Part shown: one piece after another, positions 3,898 to 52,421 of the stretch
Position numbering within the stretch: the first letter of the stretch is position 1
Layout of the letters: each line of letters opens with the position of its first letter
Assembly: GCF_000801295.1 (NCBI RefSeq)
Contig: NZ_AP012978.1
Location: forward strand, 186,001 to 250,000
Length of the DNA: 64,000 nt
Reading direction: 5' to 3'
DNA from: an endosymbiont of unidentified scaly snail isolate Monju
GTDB taxonomy: Bacteria > Pseudomonadota > Gammaproteobacteria > Chromatiales > Chromatiaceae
Program-made: the position numbers and the translations under genes
The notes under the pieces: generated by a model
Seen by the model: only the letters and a program-made list of their open reading frames with translations
Databases searched by the model: none
What the model was told of the DNA's origin: nothing

Positions 3898-12242
<8,345 letters not shown>

Positions 12243-21542: not shown

Positions 21543-21796
21543 GCGAGCAGGCAGGTAACCGGACTCTCCAGGGGCGCGTCGTCAGCGACAAGATGGACAA
21601 GACCATCACGGTGCTGATCGAGCGCCGGGTCAAGCACCCGCTGTACGGCAAGTTTGTGCGCCGTTCCACCAAGGTGCATGCGCACGACGAGAACAACGAG
21701 TGTCGCGTGGGCGACGTGGTGGTGGTCGAGCAGTGCCGGCCACTGTCCAAGACCAAGAGCTGGCGTTTCGTCAAGCTGGTCGAACGTCCGAACTGA
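21539..21796 (+). CDS. rpsQ: 30S ribosomal protein S17
   Basis: S17 is a primary 16S rRNA-binding protein. The 85 residues include [68 protein letters not shown], with the typical OB-fold pattern. It starts inside the end of rpmC (ATGA overlap). Confidence 0.96.
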
Positions 21797-21830
21797 ATCG
21801 AACTGAACTCAAACTGATTGGGGTAGTGTC

Positions 21831-22199
21831 ATGATCCAGATGCAAACCATGCTGGACGTTGCAGACAACAGCGGGGCCAAACGCGTCCAGTGCATCAAGG
21901 TGCTGGGCGGTTCGCACCGCCGGTACGCCGGAATAGGCGACATCATCAAGGTGTCGGTTAAAGACGCTATTCCGCGCGGCAAGGTCAAGAAGGGCAACGT
22001 CTACAACGCCGTCGTTGTGCGTACCCGCAAGGGGGTGCGTCGTCCCGACGGCTCGGTGATCCGCTTCGACGGTAACGCTGCGGTGCTGTTGAACAACGCC
22101 CTGGCGCCGATCGGCACCCGTATCTTTGGCCCGGTAACGCGCGAACTGCGCAGCGAGCGCTTCATGAAGATCGTCTCGCTCGCACCGGAAGTACTCTGA
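21831..22199 (+). CDS. rplN: 50S ribosomal protein L14
   Basis: L14 contacts the small subunit through bridge B8. The 122 residues begin [55 protein letters not shown], the diagnostic L14 pattern. It is the first gene of the spc-type cluster. No strong separate promoter is obvious in the 34-base gap before it. Confidence 0.97.
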
Positions 22200-22209
22200 G
22201 GAAATCGCC

Positions 22210-22527
22210 ATGGCACGACGCATTCGTAAAGGCGACGACGTGATCGTTCTCGCCGGCAAGGACAAGGGCAAGCGCGGCACCGTCCTGGCCGTGCTCGAGG
22301 ATCGTGTGATCGTCGAGAACATCAACCTGGCCAAGAAGCACATGAAGCCGAATCCCAACAAGGGGGAGCCCGGCGGCATCGTGGACAAGGAGATGCCCCT
22401 GCACATCTCCAATGTGGCTTTGTTCAACCCCGCGACCAACAAGGGCGACCGCGTCGGATTCAAGATCCTCGAGGACGGTCGCAAGGTGCGCGTATTCAAG
22501 TCCAACGGCGAAGTCGTGGACGTCTGA
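22210..22527 (+). CDS. rplX: 50S ribosomal protein L24
   Basis: L24 is an assembly initiator at the 5' end of 23S rRNA. The 105 residues show the KOW motif [36 protein letters not shown] followed by the [21 protein letters not shown] stretch. It lies 10 bases after rplN, with GAGGAAATC as ribosome-binding site. Confidence 0.96.
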
Positions 22528-22538
22528 GGCAGATATCG

Positions 22539-23075
22539 ATGGCACGTTTGCACGATCACTACAAAGAAAAGGTCGTTCCGCAGCTGATGGAGAAGTTCGG
22601 CTACAAGAGCATCATGGAGGTGCCGCGGATCGAGAAGATCACCCTCAACATGGGTGTCGGCGAGGCCGTGGGCGACAAGAAGAACATGGAGTTCGCCGTC
22701 GGTGACATGGCGCGTATCGCCGGTCAGAAGCCGATTGTCACCCGCGCGCGCAAGTCGGTTGCCGGCTTCAAGATCCGCGAGGGGTGGCCCATCGGTTGCA
22801 AGGTGACCCTGCGTCGCGAACGCATGTACGAGTTCCTCGATCGCCTGGTGAACATCGCCCTGCCGCGGGTGCGCGACTTCCGTGGTCTGAGCTCCAAGTC
22901 CTTCGATGGCCGGGGCAACTACAGCCTGGGTGTGAAGGAACAGATCATCTTCCCCGAGGTGGAGTACGACAAGGTCGATACCCTGCGTGGCATGGATATC
23001 ACCATCACCACCACGGCGCGTACCGACGAGGAAGGCCGCGCCCTGCTCGACGGCTTCAATTTCCCGTTCAAGTAA
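22539..23075 (+). CDS. rplE: 50S ribosomal protein L5
   Basis: L5 binds 5S rRNA and bridges to the 30S head. The 178 residues start [48 protein letters not shown] and include the P-site loop region [31 protein letters not shown]. It ends 14 bases before rpsN. Confidence 0.97.
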
Positions 23076-23089
23076 TCGGACTAGAGAAC

Positions 23090-23395
23090 ATGGCAAAAAA
23101 GAGCATGTGGGCCCGCGAGGCCAAGCGCCAGAAGATGGTTCAGAAGTACGCCGCCAAGCGCGCCGAACTGAAGGCCATCATCAATGACCGCAGCCGTTCG
23201 TTCGAGGAGATCGACGCCGCCGTGGCCGCCCTGCAGAAGCTGCCGCGCGATGCCAGCCCGGTGCGCCAGCAGCGTCGCTGCCGAGTGTCCGGCCGGCCGC
23301 ACGCGGTCTATCGCAAGTTCGGCCTGTGCCGCAACAAGCTGCGCGAAGCGGCCATGCGGGGTGACGTGCCCGGCCTGAAGAAGGCCAGCTGGTAA
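23090..23395 (+). CDS. rpsN: 30S ribosomal protein S14 (zinc-independent form)
   Basis: The 101-residue product begins [30 protein letters not shown]. It is the long form without the CXXC-CXXC zinc ribbon (only isolated cysteines at RRCRVSG and FGLCRNK), as in most gammaproteobacteria. The ATG at 23090 gives the standard N-terminus, although the frame is open far upstream inside rplE. Confidence 0.96.
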
Positions 23396-29022: not shown

Positions 29023-30030
29023 ATGGCGGGTTCGGTCAACGAGTTCCTCAAGCCACGCATCGTCAACGTCGAGACGATCAGCGATCGTCACGCAAAGGTG
29101 TCCCTGGAGCCGCTGGAGCGGGGCTTCGGCCACACCCTGGGCAATGCGCTGCGCCGCATCCTGCTCTCGTCCATGCCCGGTTGCGCGGTCACGGAGGTGG
29201 AGATCGAAGGCGTGCTGCACGAGTACAGCGCCACCGAGGGCGTGCAGGAAGACGTGCTCGAGATCCTGCTCAACCTCAAGGAGCTGGCCATCGTCATGGA
29301 AGACCGTGACGAGGCCATGCTGGCTTTGAACGCCAAGGGTCCGGGTACGGTGACCGCCGGCGACCTGCAGCTCCCGCATGGCGTGGAGATCGCCAACCCC
29401 GAATTCCTGATCGCGCATCTCACCGACAAGGGCGAGCTGAGCATGAACATCAAGGTCGAGCGTGGTCGCGGCTACGAGCCCGCAGCCAACCGCGAGGGTG
29501 CGGCCGGCGAGGACCGCCCCATCGGTCGTCTGCAGCTCGACGCCTCCTACAGCCCGATCCGTCGCGTCGCCTACAGCGTCGAGGCCGCCCGCGTCGAGCA
29601 GCGTACCGACCTCGACCGCCTGGTGCTGGATATCGAGACCGATGGCACCATCGACCCGGAAGATGCCGTGCGTCACTCGGCGACCATCCTGCAGGATCAA
29701 CTCAGTGCCTTCGTCAATCTCGACCAGACCACCACGGCCACCGGTGCTGACGAAGAAGAAGGCAAGGGCCCGGCGGTCGATCCCATCCTGCTGCGCCCGG
29801 TGGACGATCTGGAACTGACGGTACGTTCGGCCAACTGCCTGAAGGCCGAGAACATCTTCCTCATCGGTGACCTGATTCAGCGCACCGAGGTGGAGTTGCT
29901 CAAGACCCCGAATCTGGGCAAGAAGTCCCTGACCGAGATCAAGGACGTACTTGCCACCCGTGGCCTGTCGCTGGGCATGCGCCTGGAGAACTGGCCGCCG
30001 GAGAATCTCGAAGAACTGATGGCACGCTGA
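29023..30030 (+). CDS. rpoA: DNA-directed RNA polymerase subunit alpha
   Basis: The alpha subunit starts polymerase assembly and binds UP elements and activators. The 335 residues (E. coli 329) comprise an N-terminal dimerisation domain ([37 protein letters not shown]) and a linker with an acidic stretch ([10 protein letters not shown]). The C-terminal domain reads [45 protein letters not shown]. The UP-element arginine (E. coli R265) is in VRSANCLK. Confidence 0.97.
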
Positions 30031-30073: not shown

Positions 30074-30484
30074 ATGCGTCATCGCAAATCCGGACGGCAG
30101 CTGAACCGTAACAGCGCACATCGCAAGGCCATGTTCCGCAACATGGCCAACTCGCTGTTCGAGCATGAACTGATCAAGACCACTCTGCCCAAGGCCAAGG
30201 AACTGCGCCGTGTGGCCGAGCCGTTGATCACCCTGGCCAAGGAAGACAGCGTGGCCAAGCGTCGCCTGGCCTTCGCCCGCCTGCGCAATCAGGCCGCTGT
30301 GGCCAAGCTGTTCAACGAGCTGGGCCCGCGCTACAAGGAGCGTCCGGGCGGCTATCTGCGTATCCTCAAGTGTGGTTATCGCCCCGGCGACAAGGCACCC
30401 ATGGCCTACGTCGAGCTGGTCGATCGCCCGATCGTCGAGGCCGCCGAGGGTGACGACATGGAAGCGGCCGTCGAGACCGAATGA
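30074..30484 (+). CDS. rplQ: 50S ribosomal protein L17
   Basis: The 136 residues begin [58 protein letters not shown], the universal L17 start. An acidic tail ([15 protein letters not shown]) follows the conserved core, making it slightly longer than E. coli L17 (127). It is the last gene of the ribosomal block and is followed by a terminator. Confidence 0.97.
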
Positions 30485-30504: not shown

Positions 30505-30528
30505 AGGCCGGGCATTGCCCGGCCTTTT
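30505..30528 (+). terminator. Intrinsic terminator of the ribosomal protein block
   Basis: AGGCCGGGC (30505-30513) pairs perfectly with GCCCGGCCT (30517-30525) around the loop ATT, followed by TTTT and GCGTTT. It lies 20 bases after the rplQ stop. This is a textbook Rho-independent terminator. Confidence 0.88.
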
Positions 30529-30551: not shown

Positions 30552-31280
30552 ATGAGTGGCCCGCTCGTCCTGTTTACCGACTACGGGCTCGATGGCCCCT
30601 GGGTCGGCCTGCTGCATGCGGTGATACGCCAGGCCCGGCCAGGGGCCGGGATCATCGACTTGCAACACGACCTGCCCCCTTTCGACCGCGTGGCGCCGGT
30701 GTCCTGCTCGCCGCTCTGCGCCGCTGGGTGCCGCTGGGTGCCGCGGGGTGCCACCGTGGTGGCAGTGGTCGACCCCGGGGTCGGTACCGCGCGCGGCGGA
30801 TTGCTCGTCGAGTGTGACGATCTGCGCCTGATCGGTCCCGACAACGGCCTGTTCGCCCCCTTTTTCGCGGGGGCGCTGCGCATCCGGCGTATCGACTGGA
30901 TGCCCGGTGACATCCCCGCCACCTTCCATGGCCGCGACTGGTTCGTGCCCGCTGCGCTGCGCCTGCTCTCGGGTGAGGCGCTGGAGACTACCGAACTACG
31001 CCCTGCAGATTGCGTCGGCCATGACTGGTCCGGGCGGCTCGACGAGATCGTGTACATCGATCGTTTCGGCAACCTGGTGACCGGCATTCCGGCCCCGCTG
31101 GCCCCGGATGGCGGTCCGTGGTGCCTCGCCGGGCACGAATTGCCGCATGCCCGCACCTTTGCCGAGGTGTCGCCGGGCACGGCCTTCTGGCACCTGAATG
31201 CCCTGGGCCTGGTCGAGATCGCGGTCAATCTCGGCAGTGCCGCCGAGCAGCTCGGGTTGCGCGTCGGCGACCCGCTCTGA
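30552..31280 (+). CDS. SAM hydroxide adenosyltransferase/hydrolase (DUF62 family) with a locally shifted frame
   Basis: The family splits S-adenosylmethionine to adenosine and methionine, and relatives are halogenases. The 242 residues carry the family signatures LFTDYGLDGPWVG (2-20), IIDLQHDLPPFD, VVDPGVGT and GPDNGLF, plus a C-terminal domain with RFGNLVTGI. Residues 46-61 (RVAPVSCSPLCAAGCR) do not look like the family. Another frame of the same DNA encodes RGAGVLLAALRRWVP, as expected. A 10-base tandem duplication (30721-30730 and 30731-30740) restores the frame after an apparent one-base loss near 30686. The gene may be functional, damaged, or carry sequence errors. Confidence 0.8.
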   Translation: MSGPLVLFTDYGLDGPWVGLLHAVIRQARPGAGIIDLQHDLPPFDRVAPVSCSPLCAAGCRWVPRGATVVAVVDPGVGTARGGLLVECDDLRLIGPDNGLFAPFFAGALRIRRIDWMPGDIPATFHGRDWFVPAALRLLSGEALETTELRPADCVGHDWSGRLDEIVYIDRFGNLVTGIPAPLAPDGGPWCLAGHELPHARTFAEVSPGTAFWHLNALGLVEIAVNLGSAAEQLGLRVGDPL

Positions 31281-31441: not shown

Positions 31442-32492
31442 TCAATCGAACAGGCCGAGCTGCCCGCTGGGTGAGGGCGCGCGAAACTTGTTGCAACGCA
31501 GCGGCGGCAGACCGGGGAAGCCCAGCGCCCGATACCGCTTTCGAAAGCGCGCGGCGATCAACTCGGCGAAAGGCCCTTCACCGACCATCCGGTGGCCGAA
31601 GCGGCTATCGTAGAGCCGGCCACCGCGGCTGTCGCGGATGCGGGCCAGCACCCGTTCGCGGCGTTCGGGATAGTGCACGGCCAGCCATTCGTCGAACAGG
31701 GGGCCGACCTCGTGGGGCAGGCGCAGCAGGACGTAGCCGGCCTCGTGCGCCCCGGCAGCATGCGCGGCATCCAGCAGGGCCTCGAGTTCGCTGTCGGTAA
31801 GAAACGGGATCACCGGGGCGATGAGCACGCCCACCGGGATACCCTGGGTGGCGAGCCGCTCGATCACCCGCAGGCGGCGCTGCGGGGCGGCAGCGCGCGG
31901 CTCCATGCGCCGTGCCAGTCTGCGGTCGAGGGTGGTCAGCGATACGTTCACCTGTACCAGGCCATCACGCGCCAGCTCGGCGAGCAGGTCGACATCGCGC
32001 TCGATCAATGCCGACTTGGTGACAATGCTCACCGGGTGCCGGGCCTCGCACAGCACCTCGAGCAGGGCGCGGCTGATGCCGAACTCGCGTTCTATCGGCT
32101 GCCAACCGTCGGTGTTGATCCCCAGCGCGATGGGCTGGCAGCGGTAGCCCGGGCGTGCCAGTTCCTCGCGCAACCGCATGGCGGCGTCGGGTTTCCAGTG
32201 CAGCCGGGTCTCGAAATCCAGCCCCGGGGAATAGCCCAGCCAGGCGTGGCTGGGCCGCGCGAAGCAGTAGATGCAACCGTGCTCGCAGTCGCGGTAGGGG
32301 TTGATCGACTGGCGGAAGGGCACGTCCGGTGAGTCGTTGCGGGTAATCACCGAGCGGCTGGTATCGCGTACCAGCTCGCGATTCAGCGGCGGCAGCTCCT
32401 CGCTGCTGCCCCAGCCATCGTCGAAGGTCTCGACGTGGTGTGCCTCGTATCGGTTGGCGGGATTGGAGCATGCGCCCCGTCCCCGGCGCGCC

Positions 32493-32506
<14 letters not shown>
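31442..32506 (-). CDS. PA0069-family radical SAM protein (SplB-like)
   Basis: A radical SAM enzyme of 354 residues with the iron-sulfur motif CEHGCIYCFAR at about 74-84 (CX3CX2C). It begins MQRSEARRGRGACSNPANRYE; the GRGA-SNP-RFE-like start is typical of the PA0069/Rv2578c family of uncharacterised spore-photolyase-like proteins. The barrel continues through GINTDGWQPIER and APVIPFLTD. The reaction is unknown. The start overlaps the end of recG by 14 bases, so the two are probably co-transcribed. Confidence 0.85.
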
Positions 32507-34580
<2,074 letters not shown>

Positions 34581-36803: not shown

Positions 36804-38288
36804 GACGACGCGGTCCCGCCGCCACCGGAGCCATAGGCCGCCGAGGATCGCCAGCACCCACAAGGGGGCATCGTGCCAGCGCACGTAGGGGGTGGCGCCC
36901 CGGCGCGGTACCACCTCGGCCTGCAGCAGCGCGGGGGCGAACTGGGGCGAGCGTGCGCGCACCCGGCCGCGCTCGTCGATCACCGCCGAGATGCCGGTAT
37001 TGGTCGCGCGCAGCAGCCAGCGGCCGGTTTCTCGCGCACGCATCCGCGCGATCTGCAGGTGTTGATGCGGCGCCAGCGAGTCGCCAAACCAGGCATCGTT
37101 GCTGGCGTTGATCAGGAACGCCGCCTGCGGCAGGGCCTCGGCGACTTCGTGGCCGAAGGCGTCCTCGTAACAGATGTCCACGCCCACTACGTGATCGGCG
37201 AGATGCAGCACCGGGCCGACCGAGGGGTCGGCGCTGAAGTCCGACATGGGAATGCGCAGAAAGTCCAGCAGCGGGCGCAGCAAGGGGGCCAGCGGCAGGT
37301 ATTCGCCGAAGGGCACCAGGTGGCGTTTGAGATACTGCTGTCGGCCGGAGGTCCCGAGCCCGACCATGGCGTTGTAATAGCGACCGTCGGGGCGACGCAC
37401 CGCGATGCCGGTGAGCAGGTCCCGCCCCTCGTTGTGCATGCGCCGGTCGAGCGGCCGCAGCAGGGTGTATTCGACCTCGTCGTCGAATGCTGCGATGGCC
37501 GTCTCCGGCCAGACGACCAGGCGTGCCTCCGGCGCCTGCTCGCTCAGTCCCAGGTAGCGTTCGATACTCGGCTGGAATTGCTCGGGCCGCCACTTCTCGT
37601 GCTGCGGCACATTGCCCTGCACCAGTGCCACCGGCACCGGCGTGCCCGCGGGCTCGGTCCAGTCGATGCGCCCGAGCAGTGCCCCCGTGCCCCACAGCAG
37701 GATCAGGGCGAGCAGGGGCCAGCCCCGCCGCCAGGTAAGCAACAGCCCGGCCGAGAGCACCAGCAGGGCGCCGACGCCGAATACGCCGAGCAGGGGGGCG
37801 AAACCCGCCAGTGGCAGGTCGACCTGGCTGTAGCCCAGGGACAGCCAGGGGAAGCCGGTGAAGAGATAGGCGCGCAGCAACTCGGTGCCCAGCCAGGCCA
37901 GCGGTGCGACCAGCCACAGCAGCCAGGGGCCGTCACGGGTGCCCCCCAGCCAGCGTAGGCTGGCGCCTGCGAGGGCGAAGTAGGCGGCCACCACGGCGAT
38001 GAACAGCAGGGTGAACAGCAGTCCCAGCGGTGGCACCACGCCGCCGAACTGGTCGATGCTGATGCGCAGCCAGAAGACGCCGAAGCCCATCAGGCCGAGG
38101 CCGAAGGCATAACCGATGGCGGCCGCTTCGCGCGTGTTGTGCGTGCCACGCCAGAGATGCAGCAGGGCGGCGATCAGTGGCAGCGCCAGCCAGCCCTGGC
38201 CGAAGGGAGCGAAGGCCAGCACCAGCAGGGCGCCCAGCCCGAAGGCGGCAGCCCCGCGCAGCAGGGAGGGGGCGACCCGCAGTGGCAC
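36801..38288 (-). CDS. lnt: Apolipoprotein N-acyltransferase
   Basis: Lnt adds the third acyl chain to lipoproteins in the inner membrane. The 495 residues have about seven N-terminal and one C-terminal membrane segments around a nitrilase-like periplasmic domain. The catalytic triad is visible as Glu in VVWPETA, Lys in YLKRHLVPFGEYLP and Cys in GVDICYEDAFG. It starts at GTG 38288, next to the corC stop. Its TAG stop is the terminal trinucleotide of repeat copy 1, and the end WRRDRVV looks natural. Confidence 0.95.
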   Translation of the reverse strand: MPLRVAPSLLRGAAAFGLGALLVLAFAPFGQGWLALPLIAALLHLWRGTHNTREAAAIGYAFGLGLMGFGVFWLRISIDQFGGVVPPLGLLFTLLFIAVVAAYFALAGASLRWLGGTRDGPWLLWLVAPLAWLGTELLRAYLFTGFPWLSLGYSQVDLPLAGFAPLLGVFGVGALLVLSAGLLLTWRRGWPLLALILLWGTGALLGRIDWTEPAGTPVPVALVQGNVPQHEKWRPEQFQPSIERYLGLSEQAPEARLVVWPETAIAAFDDEVEYTLLRPLDRRMHNEGRDLLTGIAVRRPDGRYYNAMVGLGTSGRQQYLKRHLVPFGEYLPLAPLLRPLLDFLRIPMSDFSADPSVGPVLHLADHVVGVDICYEDAFGHEVAEALPQAAFLINASNDAWFGDSLAPHQHLQIARMRARETGRWLLRATNTGISAVIDERGRVRARSPQFAPALLQAEVVPRRGATPYVRWHDAPLWVLAILGGLWLRWRRDRVV

Positions 38289-46563: not shown

Positions 46564-46636
46564 CTTTCCTCCTCGAAAATAGGTGCTGGCGTCCCTTCCT
46601 TGGGGTCAGCCGTCGGTTCGTTCAGCGATTGGGATG

Positions 46637-48016
46637 TTACGCTGGCGCGCCGATGATTGCATCCGCCTGCGCGCGCTCGAAATGCTCGCGATCGACCTTC
46701 AGATAGGCTACCCCCTCCTCGGGCACCACCACCGCCTCGACCACCCCCGGCAGGGCCTGCAGCTGGCTGGCTATCCTTGCCGGATCGCCCAGCGCCGTCT
46801 CGGGCAGGTGCAGCAGTTCGCTGGCCACCCGCTGTGGCTGGCGCATGCCGCTGGCAGCGAGCAGCCAGACGAGGGTCATGCCGGCGCCGAACAGGAAGGG
46901 CGCCATGACGCCGTAGTGCTGGTGCAGCCAGCCGCCCAGCACGCCGCCGACGAAGGACCCCGTGAACTGCGAGGTGGAATACACGCCCATTGCCGTACCC
47001 TTGGCGTCCGGCGGCGCGGTCTTGGATACCAGCGAGGGCAGGATGGCCTCGAGCAGGTTGAAGGCCACGAAGAACAGCGCCACCGCCAGCACCAGCGGCC
47101 AGAACTGATGACCGAAGCGCCAGATCAGCAGTTGCGCTACGCCAAGGGTACTGATGGCGCCGAGGAACACGCCTTTCATGTGTCCGCCCTTCTCGGACAG
47201 GATCACCAAGGGCACCATGCCGATGATGGCGATGAGCATGATCGGAAGGTACACCAGCGCGTGATTCGCCGGTGCCACGCCGGCATCGCGCAGGAGCAGC
47301 GGGACGGCCAGGAACAGGGCGGTGAGGATCAGGTGCAGCGAGAAGATGCCGAGATCGAGACGCAGCAGGTCGGCCTGCGTGAGCACCCGCCGGAACAGGG
47401 CCGGCACCGGCTCGGCGTCGCGATGCACCGAGCTGCGCAGTGGCGTCGGTACCACCCAGGCGATCAGCGCCATGCCGGCCAGTGCCAGCCCGGCCGTGAT
47501 CCAGAAGATGCCCGGCACGCCCACCCAGGCATCCAGAGCGGGGCCGGCGATCATCGCCAGCATGAAGGACAGGCCGATGGTCATGCCGATGGTGGCCATG
47601 ATCTTGGTGCGCTGCTCCTCGCGCGTGAGATCGGCCGCCAGGGCCATGATCGCCGCCGCCACCGCGCCGCTGCCCTGCAGGGCGCGGCCGGCCACGATCC
47701 AGAGCATGTCCTCCGCACTCGCCGCCACCACGCTGCCCAGCGCGAACAGCGCCAGACCGCCCAGGATCACCGGTTTGCGCCCGAGGCGGTCGGACAGCAG
47801 GCCGAAGGGGATCTGCAACAGCGCCTGGGTCAGCCCGTAGATGCCGATCGCCAGGCCGGTGAGCAGCGGCGTGGCTCCCGGCAGGGTCTCGGCATACAGT
47901 GCGAACACCGGCAGGATCAGGAACAGGCCCAGCATGCGCGTGCCATAGACCCCCGCCAGGCCCAGCGCGGCGCGGCGTTCCGCCGGACTCAGAGCGTGAT
48001 CCCTCTCCTTCGTCAT
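46637..48016 (-). CDS. YajR-like MFS transporter with C-terminal ferredoxin-fold domain
   Basis: The 459 residues form 12 membrane segments with the MFS motif A (GLLSDRLGRKPVI) and an antiporter-like motif region (MGVYSTSQFTGSFVGGVLGG). A soluble tail (about 395-459, LPGVVEAVVVPEEGVAYLKVDREHFERAQADAIIG) resembles the YAM domain of E. coli YajR. The substrate is unknown. The ATG at 48016 has GGGAGG 6 bases upstream; further upstream in-frame starts lie in the uvrA promoter region. Adjacency to ssb and divergent uvrA is conserved in gammaproteobacteria. Confidence 0.88.
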   Translation of the reverse strand: MTKERDHALSPAERRAALGLAGVYGTRMLGLFLILPVFALYAETLPGATPLLTGLAIGIYGLTQALLQIPFGLLSDRLGRKPVILGGLALFALGSVVAASAEDMLWIVAGRALQGSGAVAAAIMALAADLTREEQRTKIMATIGMTIGLSFMLAMIAGPALDAWVGVPGIFWITAGLALAGMALIAWVVPTPLRSSVHRDAEPVPALFRRVLTQADLLRLDLGIFSLHLILTALFLAVPLLLRDAGVAPANHALVYLPIMLIAIIGMVPLVILSEKGGHMKGVFLGAISTLGVAQLLIWRFGHQFWPLVLAVALFFVAFNLLEAILPSLVSKTAPPDAKGTAMGVYSTSQFTGSFVGGVLGGWLHQHYGVMAPFLFGAGMTLVWLLAASGMRQPQRVASELLHLPETALGDPARIASQLQALPGVVEAVVVPEEGVAYLKVDREHFERAQADAIIGAPA

Positions 48017-48183
48017 TCCGACCTCCCGATATGAAGACTGCATGAAAAGCGGCATTTTACACTTCGCGCGCATCGGCGGCCGAGGCCGGCAGGGCGGCGT
48101 TGGCAAGGCGCTTTCTTTCCCGCTCGCCGCCCCTTCCCGGATTCCGTAGAATTGACTGGTTTGTCCCTGCTGCACGGAATTCG

Positions 48184-51830: not shown

Positions 51831-52421
51831 ATGTTCAAGCCGCAGAATCGTATCGCCGAGCCCCGCTGGATCGACTGGACGCGCCTGCGTCCCGGCCTCG
51901 TGCCGCCCGGAAGTGGCCGCCCGGAAGTGGCCGCCTGGCTGCGTGATCCGGGGTCGCTGACGCGTGCCGTGGTGCAGGCCTGTGCCGGCGATTTCGGGGT
52001 GGTGGTGCAGCGTCAGGACTGGGCGCGCGCCCTGCCCAGCGAGCAGCGCTGGCTGGGGGCCTCGCCCGCCGAGCGCTGTCTGGTACGCGAGGTGAAGCTG
52101 CGTTGCGACGACACGCCCTGGGTGTTCGCGCGTACCCTGATTCCCGCCACCAGCCTGCGTGGTCCGGCGCGGCGCCTGGCGCGGCTGCGCAGCCGGCCGC
52201 TGGGTGCGGTGCTGTTCGCCGACCCGTGCACCCGGCGGCTGGGTGTGCAGCTGGCACGGCTGGATGCCCGCCATGCGCTGTATCATGCGGCCTGTTCGCA
52301 CCTGGACAAGGACCGTCTCCCGGCGGCCATCTGGGGGCGGCGCACCCGGTTCTCCTATGCGGGCAAGCCCTTGCTGGTGAACGAGATCTTCCTGCCGGCC
52401 ATCCCGGCACGCACGTCATGA
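51831..52421 (+). CDS. ubiC: Chorismate lyase
   Basis: UbiC makes 4-hydroxybenzoate from chorismate for ubiquinone. The 196 residues align with E. coli UbiC through [60 protein letters not shown] and the C-terminal [24 protein letters not shown] 14-base tandem duplication (51902-51915 and 51916-51929) lies in the N-terminal part. A possible earlier ATG at 51804 would add 9 residues. The stop overlaps ubiA by 4 bases. Confidence 0.88.

Follow-up and report, generated by a model that had tools for sequence, protein, structure and literature searches.

Gene Content and Domain Assignment of the SAM_HAT Locus

The stretch of DNA analyzed here (hereafter the window; 64,000 nucleotides, corresponding to positions 186,001 to 250,000 of contig NZ_AP012978.1, assembly GCF_000801295.1) comes from the endosymbiont of the scaly snail isolate Monju, has a G+C content of 65.5% (unlike the sulfur-oxidizing symbiont of the neighboring snail Gigantopelta, at 39.93%; PMC7895826), and carries on its forward strand a gene for a SAM hydroxide adenosyltransferase (SAM hydrolase; SAM_HAT) of 242 amino acids, assigned on the basis of Pfam matches and fold (30552–31280, with the ATG at 30552 and the stop codon at 31278–31280). 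The gene is preceded by two genes that we take, from sequence recognition, to be rpoA (29023–30030) and rplQ (30074–30484), and it is followed on the opposite strand by what are presumably, on the same grounds, a SplB-like radical-SAM gene (31442–32506) and recG (32493–34580). A terminator-like hairpin lies between rplQ and the SAM_HAT gene (30505–30525, forward strand), but it is a weak candidate, with one hairpin found against a mean of 0.8 in shuffled sequences.

Both domains of the family are recognized in the product, with scores of 128.6 bits for SAM_HAT_N (PF01887, cutoff 26.3) and 80.2 bits for SAM_HAT_C (PF20257, cutoff 25.5). In a search of solved structures, PH0463 (1wu8) ranked first by E-value, with a TM-score of 0.81 by query length, and 2wr8 was also matched. 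The catalytic triad of PH0463, which we take to be D68, R75 and H127, has its counterparts in D74, R81 and H126 of the window protein (from an alignment of CTD079, the reference isolate introduced below, to 2wr8), and the same residues are present in 80/80, 78/80 and 80/80, respectively, of the listed homologues, these 80 being the loci kept among at least 521 relatives found. Judged from its sequence, the product is a full-length SAM hydroxide adenosyltransferase that keeps its active-site residues, and is predicted to hydrolyze SAM to adenosine and methionine.

Two Compensating Indels in the SAM_HAT Gene

We used as our reference the Chromatiaceae bacterium isolate CTD079 (CP037918.1, labeled G003 below), which is the closest among the genomes compared, and whose SAM_HAT gene shares 80% protein identity with that of the window, as well as 84% DNA identity over a 309-base piece. 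Relative to this gene, DNA alignments show the loss of one base (−1) in a C5 run at 30675–30679 (forward strand), at a site that precedes TTTCGACC. The second indel is the gain of one unit (+10) in a 10-base tandem at 30720–30740 (forward strand), detected with TRF, in which the exact unit CCGCTGGGTG stands at 30721–30730 and 30731–30740 and is followed by a unit with one mismatch at 30741–30750. The two indels lie about 45 bases apart in a single gene, each of them breaks the frame, and their net length of +9 bases is divisible by three and adds three residues. Counting TRF rows with a period of up to 20 and a score of 50 or more, the tandem is the sole period-10 row among 17 rows in 250 kb of this genome, and none of the 9 rows in 270 kb of CTD079 has a period of 10. 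Elsewhere in the window, a perfect 14-base tandem (2.4 copies, 51902–51935) coincides with a 15-base insertion relative to CTD079.

An earlier note on this DNA had proposed that the gene carries a compensated double frameshift (−1, +10), and comparison with relatives bears this out, including the single surplus unit of the tandem, which appears as a 10-base gap in the CTD079 alignment. The details of the first indel need to be amended: the note placed the lost C near 30686, about 10 bases downstream of the C run to which the alignment assigns it, and the peptide FDPRGAG that it restored in this way is found in none of the genus genomes G001 to G006, which read PPF followed by RP(R/Q)G(A/G)G (that is, PPFRP).

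The Out-of-Frame Segment

As a consequence of the two indels, the segment at 30684–30740 (forward strand) lies outside the ancestral frame, and protein alignments show that about residues 45–63 (DRVAPVSCSPLCAAGCRWV) replace a helix of the family, standing opposite RPRGAGILLAAQRRWL in CTD079. The +1 frame at 30683–30742 (forward strand) still encodes the ancestral-like peptide RPRGAGVLLAALRRWVPLGA, identified by translation and by its match to CTD079, with 16/20 positions identical to residues 45–64 of that protein (E 5e-9 in a two-sequence comparison); this agrees with the description in the earlier note of an encoded peptide that does not fit the family and a next frame that does. About 19 residues, which cover one helix, are thus read out of frame, and CTD079 has three residues fewer at this place. 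The distance from F44 to V73 spans 30 residues in the window protein, three more than the 27 found in 77 of the 80 listed homologues and four more than the 26 found in the other three.

The motif VAPVSC occurs in 0/80 listed homologues, and relatives sharing the longer segment RVAPVSCSP, which the earlier note had named as the observation that would speak against a frameshift, were looked for and likewise found in none of these 80. We therefore reject the possibility that the segment is an old, normal variant of the family, and we also reject a plain lineage-specific insertion, since the +1 frame retains the family peptide. Both indels are absent in the relatives, and because the unscarred length is seen in all 80 listed homologues and the +1 frame keeps the family peptide, we consider the change to be derived in this genome. 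A second copy of the gene as the source of the segment can be discarded, as PF01887 has a single match (E ≤ 0.001) in the 2,597,759-base single-contig genome, which is the SAM_HAT gene itself. A weak 40-base DNA match to window positions 30687–30726 (83% identity), located elsewhere in the genome at G000:C1:429391–429430, lies between the C run and the second repeat unit without reaching either, and we take it to be a chance likeness of G+C-rich DNA. No match was found in a search of a plasmid collection, and a scan of genome contigs with the window protein alone yielded 61 stretches, none of them a relative.

Either indel alone would end the protein early, with a stop at 30829 if only the base were lost and at 30815 if only the unit were gained. 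Both stops lie near residue 90 of 242, before the FHGRD motif and the whole C-terminal domain. We note that the out-of-frame helix reads C-S-P-L-C-A-A-G-C at 30705–30731, a CX3CX3C pattern that is taken as a chance by-product.

The SAM_HAT Gene Across the Genus

A DNA match to the gene is present in 8/8 genus genomes compared (this genome, G000, included). The segment is unscarred in G002, G003, G004, G005 and G006, and also in G001, whose copy of the gene is divided between two contigs. In the 1.9-Mb genome G007, stops and deletions mark the SAM_HAT gene as a decayed pseudogene, located between rplQ and recG (minus strand, about 3977–4283 of G007:C3, or L047:1977–2283), and a SplB-like match at E 1e-8 was not found in the 5-kb stretch of G007. 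The rpoA and rplQ genes of G007 are 93.7% and 94.9% identical, respectively, to those of the window. CTD079 (2.75 Mb) has been described as the closest known free-living relative of the symbiont, for which Nakagawa et al. (2014) obtained a genome of 2.60 Mb, and the symbiont population at the Kairei field is extremely homogeneous, with 0.01–0.02 SNPs per kb (PMC9381778). The same study (vent-field genomes under BioProject PRJNA764822) covers 23 assemblies sampled across five vent fields, including one built from the Nakagawa data.

Other Frame-Breaking Differences in the Region

Across 205 ORF pairs with CTD079 in the first 250 kb of the genome, we obtained 34 internal and 24 terminal out-of-phase stretches. 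With 43 aligned bases, the SAM_HAT stretch ranks second in length among the 34 internal ones; the longest, of 57 bases (G000 95637–95693), belongs to a gene pair that is also out of phase in its start region. The other 32 measure at most 27 bases and comprise noise from the alignment, starts that were called wrongly, and what may be small compensated pairs; as these are unfiltered and unpolarized, the SAM_HAT scar may not be the sole one. Indels relative to CTD079 that are not multiples of three make up 43/50 in the window and 244/313 in the 250 kb, intergenic DNA included. Other genes here look frameshift-broken, such that indels, real or not, are not rare in this genome.

Several individual differences can be mentioned. 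A very short +1/−1 difference in recG (33314–33321, a 7-base stretch) and another in a 495-aa minus-strand ORF (37935–37946, a 10-base stretch) may each be a small compensated pair or noise of the alignment. Outside the window, a 703-aa ORF of CTD079 is split into ORFs of 345 and 320 aa at G000:C1:72136–74381, through +1 in a G run and −2, reflecting either a pseudogene or a sequence error. The ORFs at 21771–23096 (441 aa, compared to 257 in CTD079) and 46583–48034 (483 aa, compared to 332) differ by one- and two-base indels, which could be changes or errors on either side.

Age of the Probable Scar and Selection on the Gene

In the strictly out-of-phase part (30677–30719), there are 8 differences from CTD079, at 5/13 old-frame third positions and 3/27 first and second positions, the latter three all being first positions (Fisher p 0.09); in the present frame of the window, these 8 differences fall at positions 2 and 3. 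Over a wider stretch (30680–30752), the corresponding counts are 8/21 third positions and 6/42 first and second positions (p 0.05). This weak lean in the substitution pattern suggests that, for most of the time since the two genomes diverged, the old frame was the one in use in the segment, and the scar would accordingly be either recent or an error. We note that a recent scar and an error look alike in this test, which is itself weak.

Outside the scar, comparison with CTD079 gives a dN of 0.096, a dS of 0.425 (above the median dS of 0.23), and a dN/dS of 0.23. This ratio ranks 142 in ascending order among 193 gene pairs with a median of 0.13, these being 193 of the 205 pairs after omission of those with less than 60% identity, a short alignment, or no synonymous change. 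The gene outside the scar is thus constrained, if less so than the median gene. When the amino acid changes outside the scar are polarized with four outgroups, 10 fall on the branch of the window and 9 on that of CTD079, with 21 differences ambiguous, among which the scar positions are counted.

Predicted Structure of the Altered Protein

The AlphaFold2 model of the window protein keeps both the fold and the helix, with a mean pLDDT of 92.5, and differs little from the model of CTD079. The replaced residues are helical in both (residues 46–55 in CTD079 and 48–60 in the window protein). The shifted segment places two prolines and one glycine in the helix. Confidence is lower locally, with a pLDDT of 74 for residues 41–50, compared to 97 in CTD079. 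As the model leans on the alignment of relatives, it is no test of stability. The PF01887 score of 128.6 bits compares to 137.3 in CTD079; this drop is not attributable to the scar, because PF20257, which lies outside it, drops nearly as much (80.2 compared to 87.5 bits).

Origin of the Indel Pair

Taking all of these observations into account, we find it just about probable that the two indels are a real and recent compensating pair, or “frameshift scar”, in a gene whose enzyme has been retained. The C run would have lost one base and, some 45 bases further downstream, replication slippage on the near-repeat would have inserted one more 10-base unit, with either event coming first; the sequence of events given in the earlier note, in which the duplication rescues the one-base loss, is one of two possible orders. 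As each indel alone shifts the frame and truncates the protein, selection for the full-length enzyme would then have kept the pair. Four points here are inferences: the indels exist in the organism, they arose by slippage, the protein is functional, and the pair was retained by selection. Such rescue selection may be weak, because G007 carries a decayed pseudogene.

The scar is known from one assembly, and since only one genome of the species was examined, the main rival is an artefact of sequence or assembly, in which one or both indels are absent from the organism and the gene is either normal or singly frameshifted; the earlier note had likewise allowed for both being sequence errors. A miscalled C run is a classic type of error, whereas the gain of a 10-base unit is untypical of base-calling errors. 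The old-frame peptide is nearly intact, just as an error would leave it, and in a survey of vertebrates and insects, every quality filter was passed by only 6 of 624 genes that were candidates for compensating frameshift pairs (PMC8935012). Against this, it is unlikely that errors of opposite sense arose twice, independently, in a stretch of about 45 bases: we roughly estimate the chance of a complementary event within 60 bases at about 0.15% per event, assuming, as a rough judgment, that 204 kb of coding DNA contain about 5 events that break the frame, and at about 1.7% if all 58 unfiltered out-of-phase rows are taken as events. At either value, selection or a single complex event is a better account than two errors made independently. 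A DNA hairpin acting as a hotspot for two coupled sequencing errors was rejected, as the fold of the DNA in the segment is not unusual (z +1.17 and +0.75). On balance, we give an artefact an appreciable, if clearly minority, chance of being correct.

That the indels are real, yet lie in a gene already released from selection, so that the second restored the frame by luck in an early pseudogene, we consider improbable. The decay of the G007 gene at the same place, the helix-breaking residues in the replaced helix, and the frameshift-broken appearance of several genes elsewhere in the first 250 kb all point in this direction, but the rest of the reading frame continues uninterrupted to its usual stop, its dN/dS outside the scar is 0.23, and changes on the branch of the window are not clearly more numerous than those on the branch of CTD079 (10 compared to 9). 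Far less credible still is a phase-variable switch, in which a reversible number of 10-base units turns the enzyme on and off. Such a switch would be compatible with the presence, inside coding sequence, of two exact units and one near-unit whose length is not a multiple of three; nothing beyond the repeat itself supports it, there are only 3.3 copies, no second period-10 row exists in the 250 kb, and the present number of units is open-framed only together with the separate one-base loss. Cytosolic housekeeping enzymes are not known as usual targets of phase variation. Finally, we regard it as quite doubtful that vent-snail symbiont populations carry the scar, in a fixed or a segregating state, with the enzyme changed by an accepted, frame-shifted helix that has a CX3CX3C pattern by chance. 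If this were true, it would show with unusual directness how new protein sequence can arise at one stroke in a host-associated bacterium, with relatives in intact and pseudogene states available for comparison.

Comparison with Known Systems

If the compensating pair is real, it is a clear case, in a bacterium, of one frameshift being mended by another and not by reversal, and a single genus shows the gene in three states: intact in CTD079 and others, scarred in this genome, and dead in G007. The pair is also a warning that the predicted protein includes a segment that is not family sequence. The SAM_HAT locus is not named among the literature matches listed on compensated frameshifts or on the enzyme family.

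The pattern itself is of a known kind, namely a compensatory frameshift pair or frameshift scar. ScarTrek, applied to 5977 clinical genomes of M. tuberculosis, identified scars of this type, most of the 69 two-indel scars having their indels less than 10 bases apart (PMC8339072). As in those scars, a wounding and a fixing indel jointly restore the frame here and leave altered residues between them; unlike them, the present case comes from one genome, its indels are about 45 bases apart, and one of the two is the gain of a 10-base unit. Similarly, the compensatory frameshift pairs of vertebrates and insects (PMC8935012) share with this locus two close indels on one branch, a net length divisible by three and the replacement of a short segment, but they comprise indels of 1–2 bases, whereas we describe a bacterium, a +10 gain of a repeat unit, and one species. 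At the level of the enzyme, the window protein resembles PH0463 (1wu8, 2wr8) and the structures 2cw5, 2zbu and 2f4n of the DUF62 family in its two Pfam domains, its fold and its Asp/Arg/His residues, and differs from PH0463 and its relatives in that the helix following its PPF motif is encoded out of frame.
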